Source: Trichodelitschia bisporula (lineage: Eukaryota; Ascomycota; Dothideomycetes; Phaeotrichales; Phaeotrichaceae). Taken from it: 64,000 nt of DNA. The translations under genes were made by a program, and so were the position numbers. The notes beneath the pieces are model-generated. The model saw only the letters and a program-made list of their open reading frames with translations. It was not told the DNA's origin and searched no databases. The stretch lies in NCBI GenBank assembly GCA_010356995.1, contig ML996689.1, positions 104,283 to 168,282 of the forward strand, read 5' to 3'. Each line of letters opens with the position of its first letter. The first letter of the stretch is position 1. Shown in pieces: positions 5,023-64,000 of this stretch.

Positions 5023-6721
5023 TCATGCCTTCTCCGCCCTATGCTCCACAAGCTCGACATCCCTCTTCTCCAAGTCCTTCGGCAAGGCACCTAGCGCGCG
5101 CTCACCAAACAGCAAATCAATCTCCTCAAGCGACAGCTGCTTCGTCTCCTTGAACACGAAGTAGATAGTCGGAAACGTGATGCACGTGTTGAACGCTATG
5201 AAGATGAAGTAGAACTTCCATGTAATAGCTCCGAGAGCCTGCCTCTATCAGTTTACCACCAGGCCGAGGGATAGAGGAGACTCACAATTGGCGACACCTG
5301 CGCCCAAAACGTGCTAACGAGCCAATTCCCGATACCAGTCGCGAACGCACTGCCCCGCGCACGGATCGGCATCGGCATGACTTCGCTGGCGTATGTCCAG
5401 GATATGGGACCGAAGGACAAGCTGAAGATCACGGTGACGCAGAAGACAAAGAACACGCCTGCGATGCTCATGCCGTGGTTCGGGTGGTCGTTGTCGATGC
5501 GCGAGCCGATGACCGCGACGCAGATGAGCGCGACGGTGATGCCGACCGTACCGAAGAGGAGGGGACGCCGACGGCCGACGCGGTCGGACAGGAACCAGAT
5601 GAAGAATAAGTCTGATGACAGGTTAGGGAGAGGAGGGGTGGAAGAGGGTGGACCGACTCGTCACTGGGCCTACGACGTTGTAGATCCCCGTTACCAGTAG
5701 ATTCTTGCTCCCTGTGATGCCCAGGATCTTGTACATGATCGTGGCGTAGTAGCCGAAGACGTTGACTGTGTTGTGTTAAATCTGTTCTTTGGGACGAGGG
5801 TGGGTACCGTACTCCCGGTGAACTGCGTGAAGACTTGCATCAGGGTCGCATGCATCAGCCGCGTCCGCCATTGCGGCACCGTAAACATAACCTTCCAGCC
5901 GGGCGCCGTGATAGCCTTCTCCGCCTCGATGGTAGCCTTGATCTCGTTGAACTCTTGCAAGATCCACTCCTCGTTCTGGCCATTGAAGTGGAGTTTCCTC
6001 AGCTGCGAAGGTCAGCCCCACCCCTCAACAACAGCAGCATACATACCACCTGCAGCGCCTCCTCCGCGCGATCCTTCTCGACCAACTGGCGCGGACTCTC
6101 AGGGAAGAACAGCAAGCCGAAGATGATAACCGCGCACGGCACCACCTGGAACGCCAGCGGAAAGCGCCAACTAAACGCAGAGTTCGGCAGCTTGCTGCTC
6201 CCATAGCCGACCCACGTCGACACAATGAAGCCGACTCCAATCATCTGCTGCGTTATGCCGATCAAGAAGCCACGGGTCTTCGGATGCGCACACTCGCTCT
6301 GGTAAACCGGCACACTCATACTCATGAGCCCAACCGCCCACCCCGCCAGCACGCGGCCCACAAGCATCATCGCCAGATTCTGCGCTGCGGTCTGCAAAAT
6401 CGCGCCGAAAAGACAGATGATTGCGCCCATCTGGATCGTCCACCGCCGCCCAATCCGGTCCATGACGAAGCCGCCCATGAGAGAGCCGAGACATGCGCCG
6501 CCGTTGAACACGCTGTTGATCGCGCCGATGATGGGGCTTGTGTCGATGGTGTTGAAGAAGTGCAGGAAGTGCGGCGATTGGATCACCTCAGTCATCACGC
6601 CGGCATCGTAGCCGAAGAGGAAGGACCTGGCCCGTCAATCAGCCTTGCGCTCGTCCAGAGGCAGAGCAACTCACCCCGTGCCCGCAAACACGGCCAGCGC
6701 CGCTGTGAACCACACGCCCAT
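5023..6721 (-). CDS. MFS sugar (hexose-type) transporter
   Basis: Plasma-membrane sugar/H+ symporter family, 488 residues from six exons: 6721-6675, 6626-6047, 6002-5813, 5765-5658, 5611-5286, 5238-5023. All five introns are 44-48 nt, GT..AG, and frame-consistent. Family motifs are clear: FLFGYDAGV after TM1, DRIGRRW in the TM2-3 loop, GRVLAGWAVG with VPVYQSE in TM4-5, PESPR before the central loop, DRVGRRRPL in the second-half loop, and the C-terminal FKETKQLSLEEIDLLF. The start is the ATG giving MGVWFTAALAVFAGTGSFLFGYDAG. It is slightly short for the family because the N-terminal tail is minimal. The 5' end faces a secreted GH3 glycosidase, which suggests uptake of a sugar that enzyme releases. 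That link is inference; the substrate is not determinable. Confidence 0.92.
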
Positions 6722-7688
6722 GATGACTGGCGATAGAAAATTCCCACGTCGTTGAAGGTTTCCAGAAACGCACGCTCAGGACCAGCGCCCGGGATAATAC
6801 AGACAAATATATCGCTCCGCCGGGATAGCCCTCGGCGCACCTTCGGCCGCTCTAAGTGTCCTCCCCCGCCCACACGTTACACCCACCAGCGACAGCGCAG
6901 CAGCGGCGCGTCGTATAGTTCTAGCGCAGCGCAGCAAGCCAGCAAAAACTAGCCTCCGTCCGCGCAGGTCTCGCCATCTCGTCCCCTCCCCGGCCTGGGA
7001 TCGGGGTTTTGAATTCCGGGAAAGACCGCGGTCCGGGCCTGATGCGGGCGGCATATTTCCACCTATCCACCGAGGGAGTTTTGGACATGGTCGTGCCTGG
7101 TTCATCGCGTGCGCGGACCCCGCACTCGTTGGTGGCTCGCTAATGCGCGCGCATGGCGAGGCTGGGACCCCGCATGTAACGCTGGGGTGACGGCGCTAGG
7201 GCGCCACAATGGCACCTTGATTTGACGTCCCCACTTGGCTGCTGCAACGGCCTCGAGGACCGCGCCGTTGTAACTCTGGGGAAGCGTGCGCGTGGGGAAG
7301 AGGCGGGAACATAGCAGGTAGCGGCGGGAATGTGGGAAATCTGGGGTGCGGCATGAGTCTTGCTAACGGTGGGGAGGGGGAAATCCCGTTGAAAGGACTT
7401 GTTGCCGGGGTACGGCTGGGAAGGGTTGATTGCAATATCGCGGACGATCTAGAGAATTTTGGACGTGCCTGGTTGCGGACGGTGCTGGTTTGGCACTGAC
7501 GGCGGAAAAGTATGCCCATCGTGGTTCTGGTTTGGGTAATTGTGAGGGTAATTAGCGTTGGCTAACTAGCTGAGTAGTGTACGGAGGCCTCCGAGAGCTC
7601 AGAGCTGTCATAGCGGACCTGGAATATTCGGATATATTAACATACCGGTACCCAGCATGACGACTTCAAGCCTTCAACCATCACCACA
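6722..7688. promoter_or_regulatory. divergent promoter region of sugar transporter and GH3 gene
   Basis: A 967-bp non-coding stretch separates two divergent starts. A TATATTA at 7633-7639 lies about 50 bp before the GH3 start codon. GGCTAA occurs at 7560-7565, which matches the core of the XlnR/XYR1 site, and several SYGGRG (CreA-type) hexamers such as CTGGGG near 7182 are present. Such short motifs occur by chance, so regulation by these factors is inference only. Confidence 0.4.
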
Positions 7689-59770: not shown

Positions 59771-60907
59771 GATGATACGTAAGGCTTTGCGCGGCGTGAC
59801 TTGCGGCGGGTATGCCTAGGTGATTCTGATAGCCCATCAGACGAGGGGAGAGCTGGGCGCAGTTTATTCGCAAACGAAGAGGCGGTGGAATGGGGTACTT
59901 GCGAGGCTGAGAATGCGATGGATACGGGCCACATGGGGCCGCTTGATGGACGGGAGGAGCCGCTAGGCTAGTTCGAGGGGAAGCTAGGCGCTGTCTAGCA
60001 CTTCAACCTTTTGCCATTGTTGGCCTGTTGGCGACAACTTTTGGAGTTGTAGATGGACAATCGTTTCTCCTCGATGGGGATGAGGCCTTTCCTTCGCAGT
60101 TGGAACGGCCGCACTCTCCCGCGGGCTCAATTGTTCCACGGTACTGTATGTTTCTTGAGTCCCGCGCTGACGACACGATACAACACGACTGATAAGATGT
60201 CGTCTGTTCAACTCCAATCGAGCCTTCAATCCAGCACCAGAACGCTTGCTAACACCCATCTCACACATTACCCAGCCACCTCTTCCACAAAATCAACTAC
60301 GTATCTTGTTAAAATGAAGTGTGAACATGACTGAGTTGCTTAATTGACTAGCAGTGGGAAGTGAGCTGACTATATACCTCGCCAGGAGACGACCCCTATC
60401 TCCTGGCTCCGCTCCAGCCACCCCAGGTTGCCGCCGCAAATTCAACATATCTCCTCCATCAGAACAGTCTGTATGCTCCGTCTGTCCCTCACTGCGCTGC
60501 CAAATTCCCGCCCAAAACCATGACCGTCACTCCGGCATCCTCCCGAGCCTGCTTATGCTCGAGCCCTGGTCAGTCTCGATATCCCGTACAGCACCTACGA
60601 CGCGGGCATAGACGACGCAAGCAGCGTGGGCGGTGCAACATGGATGAACAACCGGGTATGTCCTCCAGCGAAGTCTTCGTCTATAAACTGATCAGTTGGT
60701 AGGAAAACTTGATGCCCCGTAGCATGTGGCTGTGTCTCCTCCAATCTCGTCCTCCCCTCCGCGCCCGACAGCTTACAGCCTCATTCTTGGCATTCTGCCC
60801 CACAGTTAAGCTCAGCTCGAAGCCCCAAAGCCTCGCCTTTAACCTCCAGTTCCACTCCTGCATTTTCGCAAGTCCGCAATTTCTTGACTAGCATCATTAT
60901 TTCCAAG
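59771..60907. other. intergenic, upstream of the STAND gene
   Basis: About 1.1 kb. Short ORFs on both strands (for example from ATG 60053) lack motifs. The last 200 bp are C/T-rich with leader-like composition. Confidence 0.4.
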
Positions 60908-63900
60908 ATGCCACCTGCAAAGCGGATCCGGACACGGGGCCGCTTCCATGCCTCTTCCAGTCTTTCACAACCCTCCTCACCTGTTGCTGGTGAGACCACC
61001 ACACCTGCCCCCGCGAGCAATGTCAGCCAGACCTCAACCTTAGCACTTGCCATCCAGAGAACCACCAACAGAAAGCCAACCCGCCGACTTCGTCACGAAG
61101 ACTACACAATAGGGTGGATTTGCGCGCTCCCGATTGAACTTGCAGCAGCCCAGGAGATGCTCGATGAAGAGCATCAACCTCTCCCTCAGGACGCGTCCGA
61201 TCCCAATAGCTACACGCTCGGCCGCGTTGGCGAACACAATACGGTCATCATGGTCTTAGGGCTGACGGGCACAAACTCGGCGGCCTCGGCGGTTGCTCAA
61301 ATGCAGTCAACCTTCACTTCGGTTCAACTCGGCGTCATGGTCGGCATTGGAGGCGGTGTGCCAAGCGCAAAAACCGACATCCGGCTTGGGGACGTTGTCG
61401 TTTGCCAGCCGTCCAAGGATTGTGGCGGGGTGATTCAGTACGACTTGGGCAAGACCAGGCCGGACGGAGTTGAACGAACTGGATTTCTGAACGCGCCCCC
61501 AATGACCTTGCTGAGCGCGCTGGCGAGTCTGAAGGCTAGCCATCTGAAAGGAAGAGTCGGTTTCCTAGATCATTTTGCGAAGCTCAGCAGCCAGTCTCTT
61601 TTCGCTCGCGACAAGGCTGGGCCCGATGTCCTATACCACCCTGTGTACAACCATAGGGGGGGAGAAGAAAACTGCAATAATTGCACGAAAGAATATAGCG
61701 TGCGGCGCCAGACGCGTGGCGAACATGTCATAGTTCACTACGGTACGATCGCCTCGGGGAATCAAGTCATGCGCGATGCCAAGGAACGCGACAAAGTCAG
61801 CAAGGAACTCGGAGGCGTCCTGTGCTTCGAAATGGAAGCCGCCGGGGTGATGAACAGTCTTCCATGCCTGCCTGTGCGGGGAATCTGTGACTACTCGGAC
61901 TCTCACAAGAGCAAGAGCTGGCAGCCGTACGCGGCGGGAACGGCGGCAGCATTTGCTAAAGAGCTTCTGTTGTGGCTTCCGCGGGCCAAGGTCAAGATGC
62001 CTGAAGGCGAGACAGACCCATCTGCGCCGGCAATGCCCCTAAACTTGCCCAGGGCTGCAGACACACCATCCAACCCATACGAGCGGAAAGTTTCGCCTTG
62101 CTTGACTGGTACCCGTGTTGAACTTCTCAAACAGATATACGCCTGGGCTTGCGGGGAGAACTCGCCAAATATTTTCTGGTTGAGTGGTTTAGCTGGCACC
62201 GGCAAGTCCACCGTGGCTCAAACCGTGGCCACTGGATGTTTTGAGACGGGAAGACTTGGAGCCAGCTTCTTCTTCTCGCAAAGTGGCGCAGATGTCCGGC
62301 ATGCCGGCAAGTTCGTGACAAGCATCGCAGCGCAACTTGCAGACAATGTGCCGGAGGCAAAGCGGTCTCTCAACAAGGCACTGAAGGAGCGGGATACCAT
62401 CACTGAAGAGCCTATCCGCAGTCAGTGGCATCATCTCATCCTCGGTCCCATGTCGAAGCTCGAAGGCGACACCTCCTCTGCTCCGTACATCCTGGTGGTC
62501 GATGCCCTGGACGAATGCGAGGGCGAGGACGACATAGGGGAAATTCTGAATCTCTTTCGCTTGCTGAAGAAAACCCGGCTCCGGCTGTTTTTAACGAGTA
62601 GACCTGAAGTGCCAATCCGGTTTCCTTTATTTGAAATGCCAACAAGCGAGCACCTGGACTTTGTGCTCCACGACATCAAGAAGTCGACTGTTGACAATGA
62701 TATCCGCTTCTTCCTACGGCACGAGCTCGAGCGTTTAGCCCGCAAGCACTCTTTTGACAAAGATTGGCCAGACGAGCAAGCCATCGACTCTCTTGTCCGG
62801 AATGCCAGTGGTCTGTTCATCTGGGCTGAAACTGCATGCCGCTTTGTTCAAAAAGGAAGAATATTGGCTCCCAAAAAACTAGGCTTGATCCTCGATCAAA
62901 ACCACAGTACTGTGAAAGGGCCAGAGCAGCATCTCGACGAGATCTACGCGACTGTTCTTCGCGAATCCCTTACCAACTATGAAGGCGATGATGCAGAGGA
63001 GGTGCGATGCACATTGAAGGAAGTGCTTGGAGGCATCGTAATCCTGTTCAATTCACTTTCCGTCCCGTCCTTGAGGAGGCTACTAGGTCAGAATGTGGGA
63101 CAGGCACTGGGTGATCTTCACGCCATTTTGGATATTCCAAAGGACATTCGAAAGGAACCAGGTGACGCACTCCGTTTACATCACCCTTCGTTTCGTGACT
63201 TCCTTCTCAACCCAGGGAGAAGCGAGAAAACAGGCCTCTGGGTTAATGAAGAGGAGGCGCATCGAGCCCTTGCCACGAAATGCATACAGGTCATGTCTGA
63301 CTTCCTTGCGCAGGACATGCTTGGAATAGGTCGGCCTGGAGTACTCAAGACCGAGGTCGACAGTCATGAGGTTGAAGGCTCCCTCCATCCTGAGAAGCAG
63401 TATGCATGCCTCTACTGGATACAGCATCTTCATAAGAGTGGATCTCAGCTCAACGATGACGGTGAAGTTCATCAGTTCATGAAGGAGCATCTCCTTCATT
63501 GGCTGGAGGCGCTTGGATGGATGCAAAAGGTTTCCGAAGGGTTCCATGCCATCGTGTCTTTGGAGTCCATGATATCGGTAAGCTGGACCTAAAGCAGAGT
63601 GGGTATACTTGACTGATACTTGGCTGATACTTGGCTTAGGCGCAGAGGTGTCCCCGACTAACGGAGTTTGTTCATGACATGAAACGATTTGTCCTCTACA
63701 ACCGGTCAGCCATCGAACTAGCTCCCTTGCAGACACATTGCAGCGCGCTGGTATTTTCCCCGACAGCAAGTCTTGTAAAAAGGCAGTTTCAAAGCCAAAA
63801 GCCTCTGTGGATGCCCGGACTACCGCAGGTTAGGAACAACTGGGATGCCTTGCTGCATACGCTCGAGGGCCATTCGGCTGTGGTCTGGGCCGTGGCCTTT

Positions 63901-64000
63901 TCGCTGGACGGCAAGCAGCTGGCGTCGGCATCGCACGACAGGACGGTCAGGCTGTGGGACGCCGGCTCGGGAAAGGCGCTGCAGACGCTCGAGGGCCATT
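60908..64000 (+). CDS. STAND (NLR-like) protein: PNP domain, NACHT ATPase, WD40 repeats; 3' end outside window
   Basis: NLR-architecture protein. Exon 1 is 60908-63577 (890 codons); a 62-nt intron (GTAAGC...TTAG) leads to exon 2, which runs past 64000. Residues 65-355 form a nucleoside phosphorylase-like domain: YTIGWICALPIELAAAQEML, VGIGGGVP, IRLGDVVVCQP, YGTIASGNQVMRD, CFEMEAAGVMN and RGICDYSDSHK. The NACHT module starts near 400 with Walker A GLAGTGKST (427-435) and Walker B YILVVDALDEC (527-537), then LRLFLTSRPEVPIRF and the winged-helix region ending HHPSFRDFLLNP. Exon 2 starts the WD40 array: LHTLEGHSAVVWAVAFSLDG, then KQLASASHDRTVRLWDAGSG. The next repeat begins exactly 126 bp (42 residues) later. 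The start is the first ATG in frame. Such genes act in fungal self/non-self or immune-like recognition; a role for this one is inferred. Confidence 0.92.

Follow-up and report, generated by a model that had tools for sequence, protein, structure and literature searches.

What kind of receptor is encoded at the right-hand end of the Trichodelitschia bisporula stretch on contig ML996689.1, and does its repeat array belong to a set of repeats that the genome keeps alike? The window, by which we mean the whole 64,000-nucleotide stretch analysed, corresponds to C3:104283-168282 of a 25.65-Mb assembly in 30 contigs (C denotes a contig, L a locus), and the gene in question starts with an ATG at 60908 on the + strand and continues past the window end. 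Our reading is that it is probably a fungal NOD-like receptor (NLR) of the PNP-NACHT-WD40 type whose repeat unit recurs closely alike in many genes of the genome, and that it probably acts as a cell-death receptor with a predicted nucleosidase output; its sister genes likely keep exchanging both repeats and front-end enzyme cassettes.

The receptor portion inside the window comprises 1010 aa and contains all three parts of a fungal NLR, namely an N-terminal effector, an NTPase with Walker A and B motifs and C-terminal WD40 repeats, with Pfam and an AlphaFold2 model giving the N- to C-terminal order disordered tail, PNP, NACHT (NPHP3_N), helical region, WD40. The original prediction had proposed this PNP-NACHT-WD40 layout, which stands on the Pfam matches and the open frame, and had overlooked a short intron. 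The gene is built as follows.

60908 to 63577, + strand: exon 1, 890 codons, with disordered tail, PNP, NACHT and helical region (open frame, Pfam).
62132 to 62611, + strand: NACHT / NPHP3_N ATPase domain, residues 409-568 (Pfam).
62186 to 62209, + strand: Walker A, GLAGTGKS, residues 427-434 (sequence).
62486 to 62518, + strand: Walker B region, YILVVDALDEC, residues 527-537 (sequence).
63578 to 63639, + strand: 62-bp intron, GTAAG...TTAG, phase 0 (splice signals and annotated proteins).
63640 to 64000, + strand: exon 2, continuing beyond the window end (sequence, Pfam WD40).

The frame is open from the ATG through 63577, and the annotated proteins P0001-P0003 join ...SLESMIS to AQRCPRL identically, matching the intron. 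Pfam placed PNP_UDP_1 (PF01048) at residues 67-332 (6.6e-8, 32.7 bits against a cut-off of 25.1), NPHP3_N (PF24883) at residues 409-565 (2.7e-29), NACHT (PF05729) at residues 423-568 (5.9e-8, above the cut-off) and WD40 (PF00400) in exon 2 (9.5e-14), while a HET domain gave no Pfam match at E 0.1 or better in the in-window protein, PNP_UDP_1 being found instead. Both Walker motifs are intact, as had been proposed, with GLAGTGKS and VVDALDE read in the sequence, and neither the Walker A residues G430, G432, K433 and S434 nor the Walker B residues D532, D535 and E536 vary across 48 aligned sequences. The AlphaFold2 model of exon 1 (890 aa) had a mean predicted local distance difference test score (pLDDT) of 81.8 and a predicted template modelling score (pTM) of 0.57, with residues 1-58 below a pLDDT of 50.

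The repeat array begins close to the window end.

63859 to 63984, + strand: WD40 repeat 1, exactly 126 bp, TLEGHSAVVWAVAFSLDGKQLASASHDRTVRLWDAGSGKALQ (sequence).
63985 to 64000, + strand: start of repeat 2, with N from 64001 onward (sequence).

The repeat length of 126 bp and the identity of the 16-mers at 63859-63874 and 63985-64000 were read as predicted. Sixteen bases alone are thin evidence of an array, and the sequence beyond the window adds more: 1,590 N follow from 64001, after which a WD repeat resumes with 44 nt that match the end of repeat 1 exactly, and past this repeat come a divergent C-terminal part and then a stop (L009:5244-5246, L009 being the window gene locus), 1,863 bases beyond the window. 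An early stop, or repeats that are few and divergent, had been named as what would speak against a homogenised array, and neither was seen at either readable edge of the N-run. Measured in phase, the two sides of the run lie 1,762 bp apart, which amounts to 13.98 units of 126 bp (hand division), and from this we guess about 14 repeats, provided that the run length is real; because 1,762 bp is no multiple of three, either that length is an estimate or the array does not consist wholly of whole units. A double propeller of 14 repeats would fit the structure 2ymu (two halves of ~7 repeats each, read from the alignment), and would likewise suit the two-propeller model in the available part of PMC12222747. 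The original prediction had also placed the repeat number, and hence specificity, outside the window; the number does lie there and reads as N, but repeat 1 inside the window already displays five variable residues (A, V, W, H and R at unit positions 7, 8, 10, 26 and 28).

These five positions recur in the unit wherever it was read. The 126-bp unit had 71 DNA matches (itself included), 73-100% alike, on 13 of the 30 contigs, and 19 full units, selected by at least 26 of 42 matches to a self-composed unit pattern, were read in 27 scanned loci. Among them, amino-acid diversity was 0.79-0.89 at codons 7, 8, 10, 26 and 28, followed by 0.53 at codon 39 and at most 0.45 elsewhere. In 17 of the 19 units, the proportion of differing nonsynonymous sites (pN) was 0.586 and that of synonymous sites (pS) 0.277 at the five variable codons, compared to 0.059 and 0.082 at the other 37. 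The mean DNA identity was 0.828 within arrays (13 pairs) and 0.863 between arrays (158 pairs), with a lowest pair of 0.675; units are thus no more alike within than between arrays, so repeats are shared family-wide. The same five positions ranked highest in 60 relatives with internal repeat identity of at least 0.6, drawn from 89 with at least four units among 120 proteins. In Podospora, the available text of PMC1805685 gives codons 7, 9, 25 and 27 as positively selected, flanking the conserved codons 8 and 26. With an offset of 1, set by the conserved V9 and D27 here, these become 8, 10, 26 and 28, and the chance that four named codons all fall within a given top five of 42 is 4.5e-5. The proposal of a homogenised array therefore had to be widened: the unit recurs across the genome with frozen silent sites and hypervariable codons, as homogenisation implies, but the likeness spans genes (0.863 between arrays, 0.828 within) and extends to promoter, NACHT and 3' flank.

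At the other end of the protein, the effector carries the residues of a nucleosidase.

61106 to 61963, + strand: PNP (nucleoside-phosphorylase/MTAN-fold) effector domain, residues 67-352.
61136 to 61138, + strand: Glu77, counterpart of MTAN Glu12 (aligned with E12 of 1zos; E in 48 of 48 sequences).
61835 to 61837, + strand: Glu310 (FEMEAAG), counterpart of the second Glu of MTAN EME (4bmx alignment; E in 48 of 48).
61889 to 61891, + strand: Asp328 (GICDYSD), counterpart of the MTAN Asp, Asp197 in E. coli (4bmx alignment; D in 48 of 48).

The domain thus has the fold of a methylthioadenosine/S-adenosylhomocysteine (MTA/SAH) nucleosidase with its catalytic acids, and on the basis of fold, residues and defence-model matches we infer that it would split ATP or a related nucleotide. 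An unlikely alternative is that it is no killer enzyme, being inactive or a housekeeping MTA/SAH-type nucleosidase used for scaffolding or signalling; this would agree with the best structures among the matches listed, which are MTA/SAH or futalosine nucleosidases, and with weak matches of the NCBIfam MTAN models. Those scores, however, fell far below the equivalog cut-offs (NF004079, 53.9 against 169 bits; TIGR01704, 15.3 against 73.8), whereas the PADLOC PN-superfamily defence effector models matched at 1.7e-16 (PDLC00759) and 1.3e-13 (PDLC04726), with best stretches at residues 211-294 of 311, and in the GICDYxDSHK stretch Asp328, Tyr329, Asp331, His333 and Lys334 did not vary in 48 aligned sequences. 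It had been suggested that the pocket be compared with ATP-nucleosidase effectors; fold, residues and PADLOC models fit such an effector, but fold and residues fit an MTA/SAH nucleosidase equally. PNP domains 59-60% identical to the window's also occur in two bacterial metagenome-assembled genome (MAG) records, L037 (Deltaproteobacteria) and L038 (Bryobacterales), the former followed by a P-loop (NB-ARC-like) reading frame identified by eye; both are probably fungal contigs binned into bacterial MAGs.

In the genome 33 NACHT loci were found, of which 21 were examined; 14 of these matched the window gene in both PNP and NACHT, and L025 retained PNP fragments only. Two features mark the relationships within this family.

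60618 to 60907, + strand: 5' flank or promoter region common to the gene family (paralog matches).
61157 to 61867, + strand: dimorphic PNP core cassette, about codons 84-320, version A in the window gene (A-B silent divergence, identity steps).

Recent segmental duplication alone, in which whole genes and flanks were copied and the repeats resemble one another by ancestry without ongoing exchange, might account for the first of these, since ten paralogous loci (22 searched) hold a stretch 91-97% alike to the 300 bp that start at 60618, and the C-terminal end with ~1.2 kb of 3' flank is 87-91% alike in four paralogs, shorter 3' stretches being 88-92% alike in three more (80% in L028). We nevertheless consider it improbable, a little more so than a non-killer enzyme, on the following grounds. 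Likeness to the window shifts abruptly along exon 1 of the paralogs, for 12 genes the trees drawn from PNP, from NACHT and from the helical region each reject the other two (approximately unbiased test, p 1.3e-64 to 1.2e-3), and L027 and L028, whose likeness to the window is 53-75% in all but the last of 17 exon 1 steps, reach 93-96% at codons 861-890, beside the repeats. The contrast is sharpest between the six version-A copies, the window gene included, and the five version-B copies: A-B identity starts at 95-96% well upstream, declines to 89-90% near the start codon and 82-84% at codons 24-83, drops to 56-78% (90-bp steps) at codons 84-323, and returns to 85-97% in the remainder of exon 1, where A-B likeness, that of NACHT included, is about equal to likeness within A or within B. 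At codons 84-320 the two versions have a synonymous divergence (dS) of 1.72, versus 0.12 in NACHT, a 14-fold difference at silent sites.

Both PNP cores look constrained, given an A-B nonsynonymous divergence (dN) of 0.22 against the dS of 1.72, and the ten motif residues checked, including Glu77, Glu310 and Asp328, are kept in all 11 A/B copies. Residues that no A copy has in common with any B copy, one of the latter being the gene at C4:495 kb, fall mostly within codons 80-279. When 120 PNP domains were placed in a tree with midpoint rooting, A, B and a third version, C, grouped as a single clade of this species (support 100), so the split between them happened within this lineage. On C11, a PNP of version A that stays 91% alike as far as ~residue 371 is fused to a quite different NACHT, and the WD units after that NACHT are 85-92% alike to the window's over 53-92 bp; L013, L029 and L041 likewise combine other NACHT chassis (L013 and L029 are 41% identical to the window's NACHT) with WD units close to the window's. 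We give an even chance to a modular library, in which loci stay uniform in promoter, ATPase and sensor repeats through exchange, two anciently diverged and catalytically intact cores, PNP-A and PNP-B, are kept apart on the same chassis, and PNP-A also sits on an unrelated chassis via a break in the linker. Repeat-induced point mutation (RIP) was considered as a driver and rejected: TpA/ApT was 0.44-0.55 and (CpA+TpG)/(ApC+GpT) 1.29-1.49 in 11 copies, which is no RIP signature by the usual index thresholds, and since this holds despite copies >90% alike over long stretches, such mutation seems not to police the family. Elsewhere, L019 showed no WD array within 9.5 kb free of N, and a stop lies inside the PNP match at C20:259887-260630.

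Mis-joined contigs in a short-read assembly could in principle yield mosaic genes and near-identical repeats. The 64-kb window itself is free of N, but among 28 loci, which were selected by NACHT or WD matches and give no genome-wide rate, 11 of 13 N-runs had at least one readable edge inside a WD repeat, and three of the four contig ends examined lay within repeats. In favour of N-runs being assembly gaps, the public records of P0001, P0007 and P0051 are marked as partial, and P0007 ends mid-repeat. An artefact is very improbable all the same, as the A/B boundaries lie inside exon 1 and recur in six A and five B copies, nine of these 11 copies stay open for at least 842 aa across the boundaries, and the differences between units are coding changes at fixed codons, which is non-random. 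Improbable to the point of dismissal is purifying selection with codon bias on the WD40 fold, without recombination, for although each unit keeps the WD40 consensus, protein-level constraint leaves silent sites unfrozen, and here silent differences are rare too (pS 0.082, 37 codons) while five codons vary freely.

Some N-runs and rearrangements merit separate mention. Unit matches far from any NACHT match had suggested orphan WD arrays as donor cassettes, which we do not claim: the array at C13:152.9 kb was ruled out, with a PNP start 93% alike to the window's on the same strand behind a 3,818-base N-run, and that at C16:615 kb also adjoins an N-run. The 3,818-base run (C13:153181-156998; L034:782-1401, L042:1-3198) lies where the public protein P0013, with the same C-terminus, has NACHT, which means that a gap in the public record does not fully account for this run. 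Head-to-head WD repeats on opposite strands, or fold-back arrays, were seen at L028:8142-8234 (C4:1431641-1431733), L032:1578-1670 (C24:332777-332869) and C21:516579-516671; because L028 and L032 have a similar, slightly diverged junction in both translations, an inherited rearrangement is likelier there than a mis-join. Outside the window and 3' of its gene, a ~130-bp stretch (L009:6299-6428) has separate matches near six other NLR loci (110-130 bp, 87-91%) and resembles, by these matches, a small dispersed element.

Against an exchanging receptor family with a nucleosidase output, several observations have to be weighed. The array of the window gene is readable only at its two edges, while the mean repeat identity of >80% within and between arrays is that of the 19 units; the pattern by which units were selected (at least 26 of 42) favours likeness among them; and among the 64 protein-level matches of the window unit, WD arrays from elsewhere in the genome show a likeness of just 45-72%. 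Since 5' and 3' flanks are shared, part of the paralog likeness reflects recent duplication rather than exchange, and some members seem to be decaying, because exon 1 of two of the 11 close copies (L012 and L019) stays open for no more than 698 and 529 aa. For the enzyme, fold and catalytic residues suit an MTA/SAH nucleosidase as well as an ATP nucleosidase; among the matches listed (best 50 per structure search), none bore a title naming an ATP nucleosidase, which is no evidence against one; and the motif shared with bacterial relatives is partly a product of the search, GICDYAD having served as the search pattern.

PNP-NACHT-WD receptors, repeat homogenisation and effector swaps are already published for other fungi. 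The tripartite layout is common to the window gene and the fungal PNP_UDP-NACHT-WD40/ANK/TPR receptors. The closest parallel for the repeats is the Podospora anserina NWD/HNWD family (het-d, het-e, het-r), in which, according to the available text of PMC1805685, NACHT is followed by WD40 repeats of 126 bp that are exchanged both inside a gene and from one gene to another, with positively selected codons at positions matching ours, and whose arrays are described in the part of PMC12222747 at hand as unreliable in short-read assemblies. The HNWD genes differ in having a HET domain in place of PNP and a proven incompatibility function. Published fungal NLR swaps, in the accessible portion of PMC4986451, place totally distinct N-terminal domains on nucleotide-binding oligomerization domains (NODs) 80-99% alike. 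The window family, in contrast, has two diverged versions of the same PNP core on one chassis, and no published report of two versions of one effector core on a homogenised chassis was found in the open-licence literature, which lacks most subscription journals; the 13 papers found to name Trichodelitschia had no NLR topic in their titles or abstract openings.

Bacterial PNP effectors that act as immune ATP nucleosidases, among them Detocs, were reportedly described by Rousset et al. in 2023. The window gene resembles them in its PNP superfamily domain, PADLOC PN-superfamily match and catalytic acids, and differs in fusing sensor and ATPase in one fungal protein, its activity being a prediction. 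Two bacterial PNP-EAD7 loci (L039, L040) share GICDYADS, which belonged to the search pattern, and also KNDxWQxYAA, which did not; these proteins differ in being small, with the effector-associated domain PF19960 at the end and neither NACHT nor WD40 in the same protein, and are 24-25% identical. In L039, from a Chloroflexi MAG, a membrane-protein-like gene (by eye) adjoins the PNP gene (L039:4262-5737 and 5746-6786), both ending in EAD7, and the pair is a candidate bacterial two-part defence module.

If the PNP-NACHT-WD40 receptor works as we propose, its WD40 propeller would recognise a non-self protein with its variable face, oligomerisation of the NACHT ATPase would follow, the clustered PNP domains would become an active nucleosidase with ATP or a related nucleotide as predicted substrate, and nucleotide depletion would kill the cell or compartment. 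That the repeat faces read a target is an analogy with the HET-E model, which, in the available text of PMC12222747, places hypervariable residues at the ligand between two propellers. Family-wide repeat homogenisation, known with a HET effector in Podospora, is extended here to a PNP (probably nucleotide-destroying) receptor family of another fungus, which offers a neat example from nature of an effector core that stands apart from the rest of its gene. Because A/B silent divergence is 14-fold higher in the PNP core than in NACHT, a testable question is posed, namely why two isoforms of a single enzyme persist on the same receptor chassis. If the modular library is real, any sensor could pair with either effector isoform, and PNP-A and PNP-B would be distinct in the partners they choose, in their regulation or in how vulnerable they are to inhibitors.
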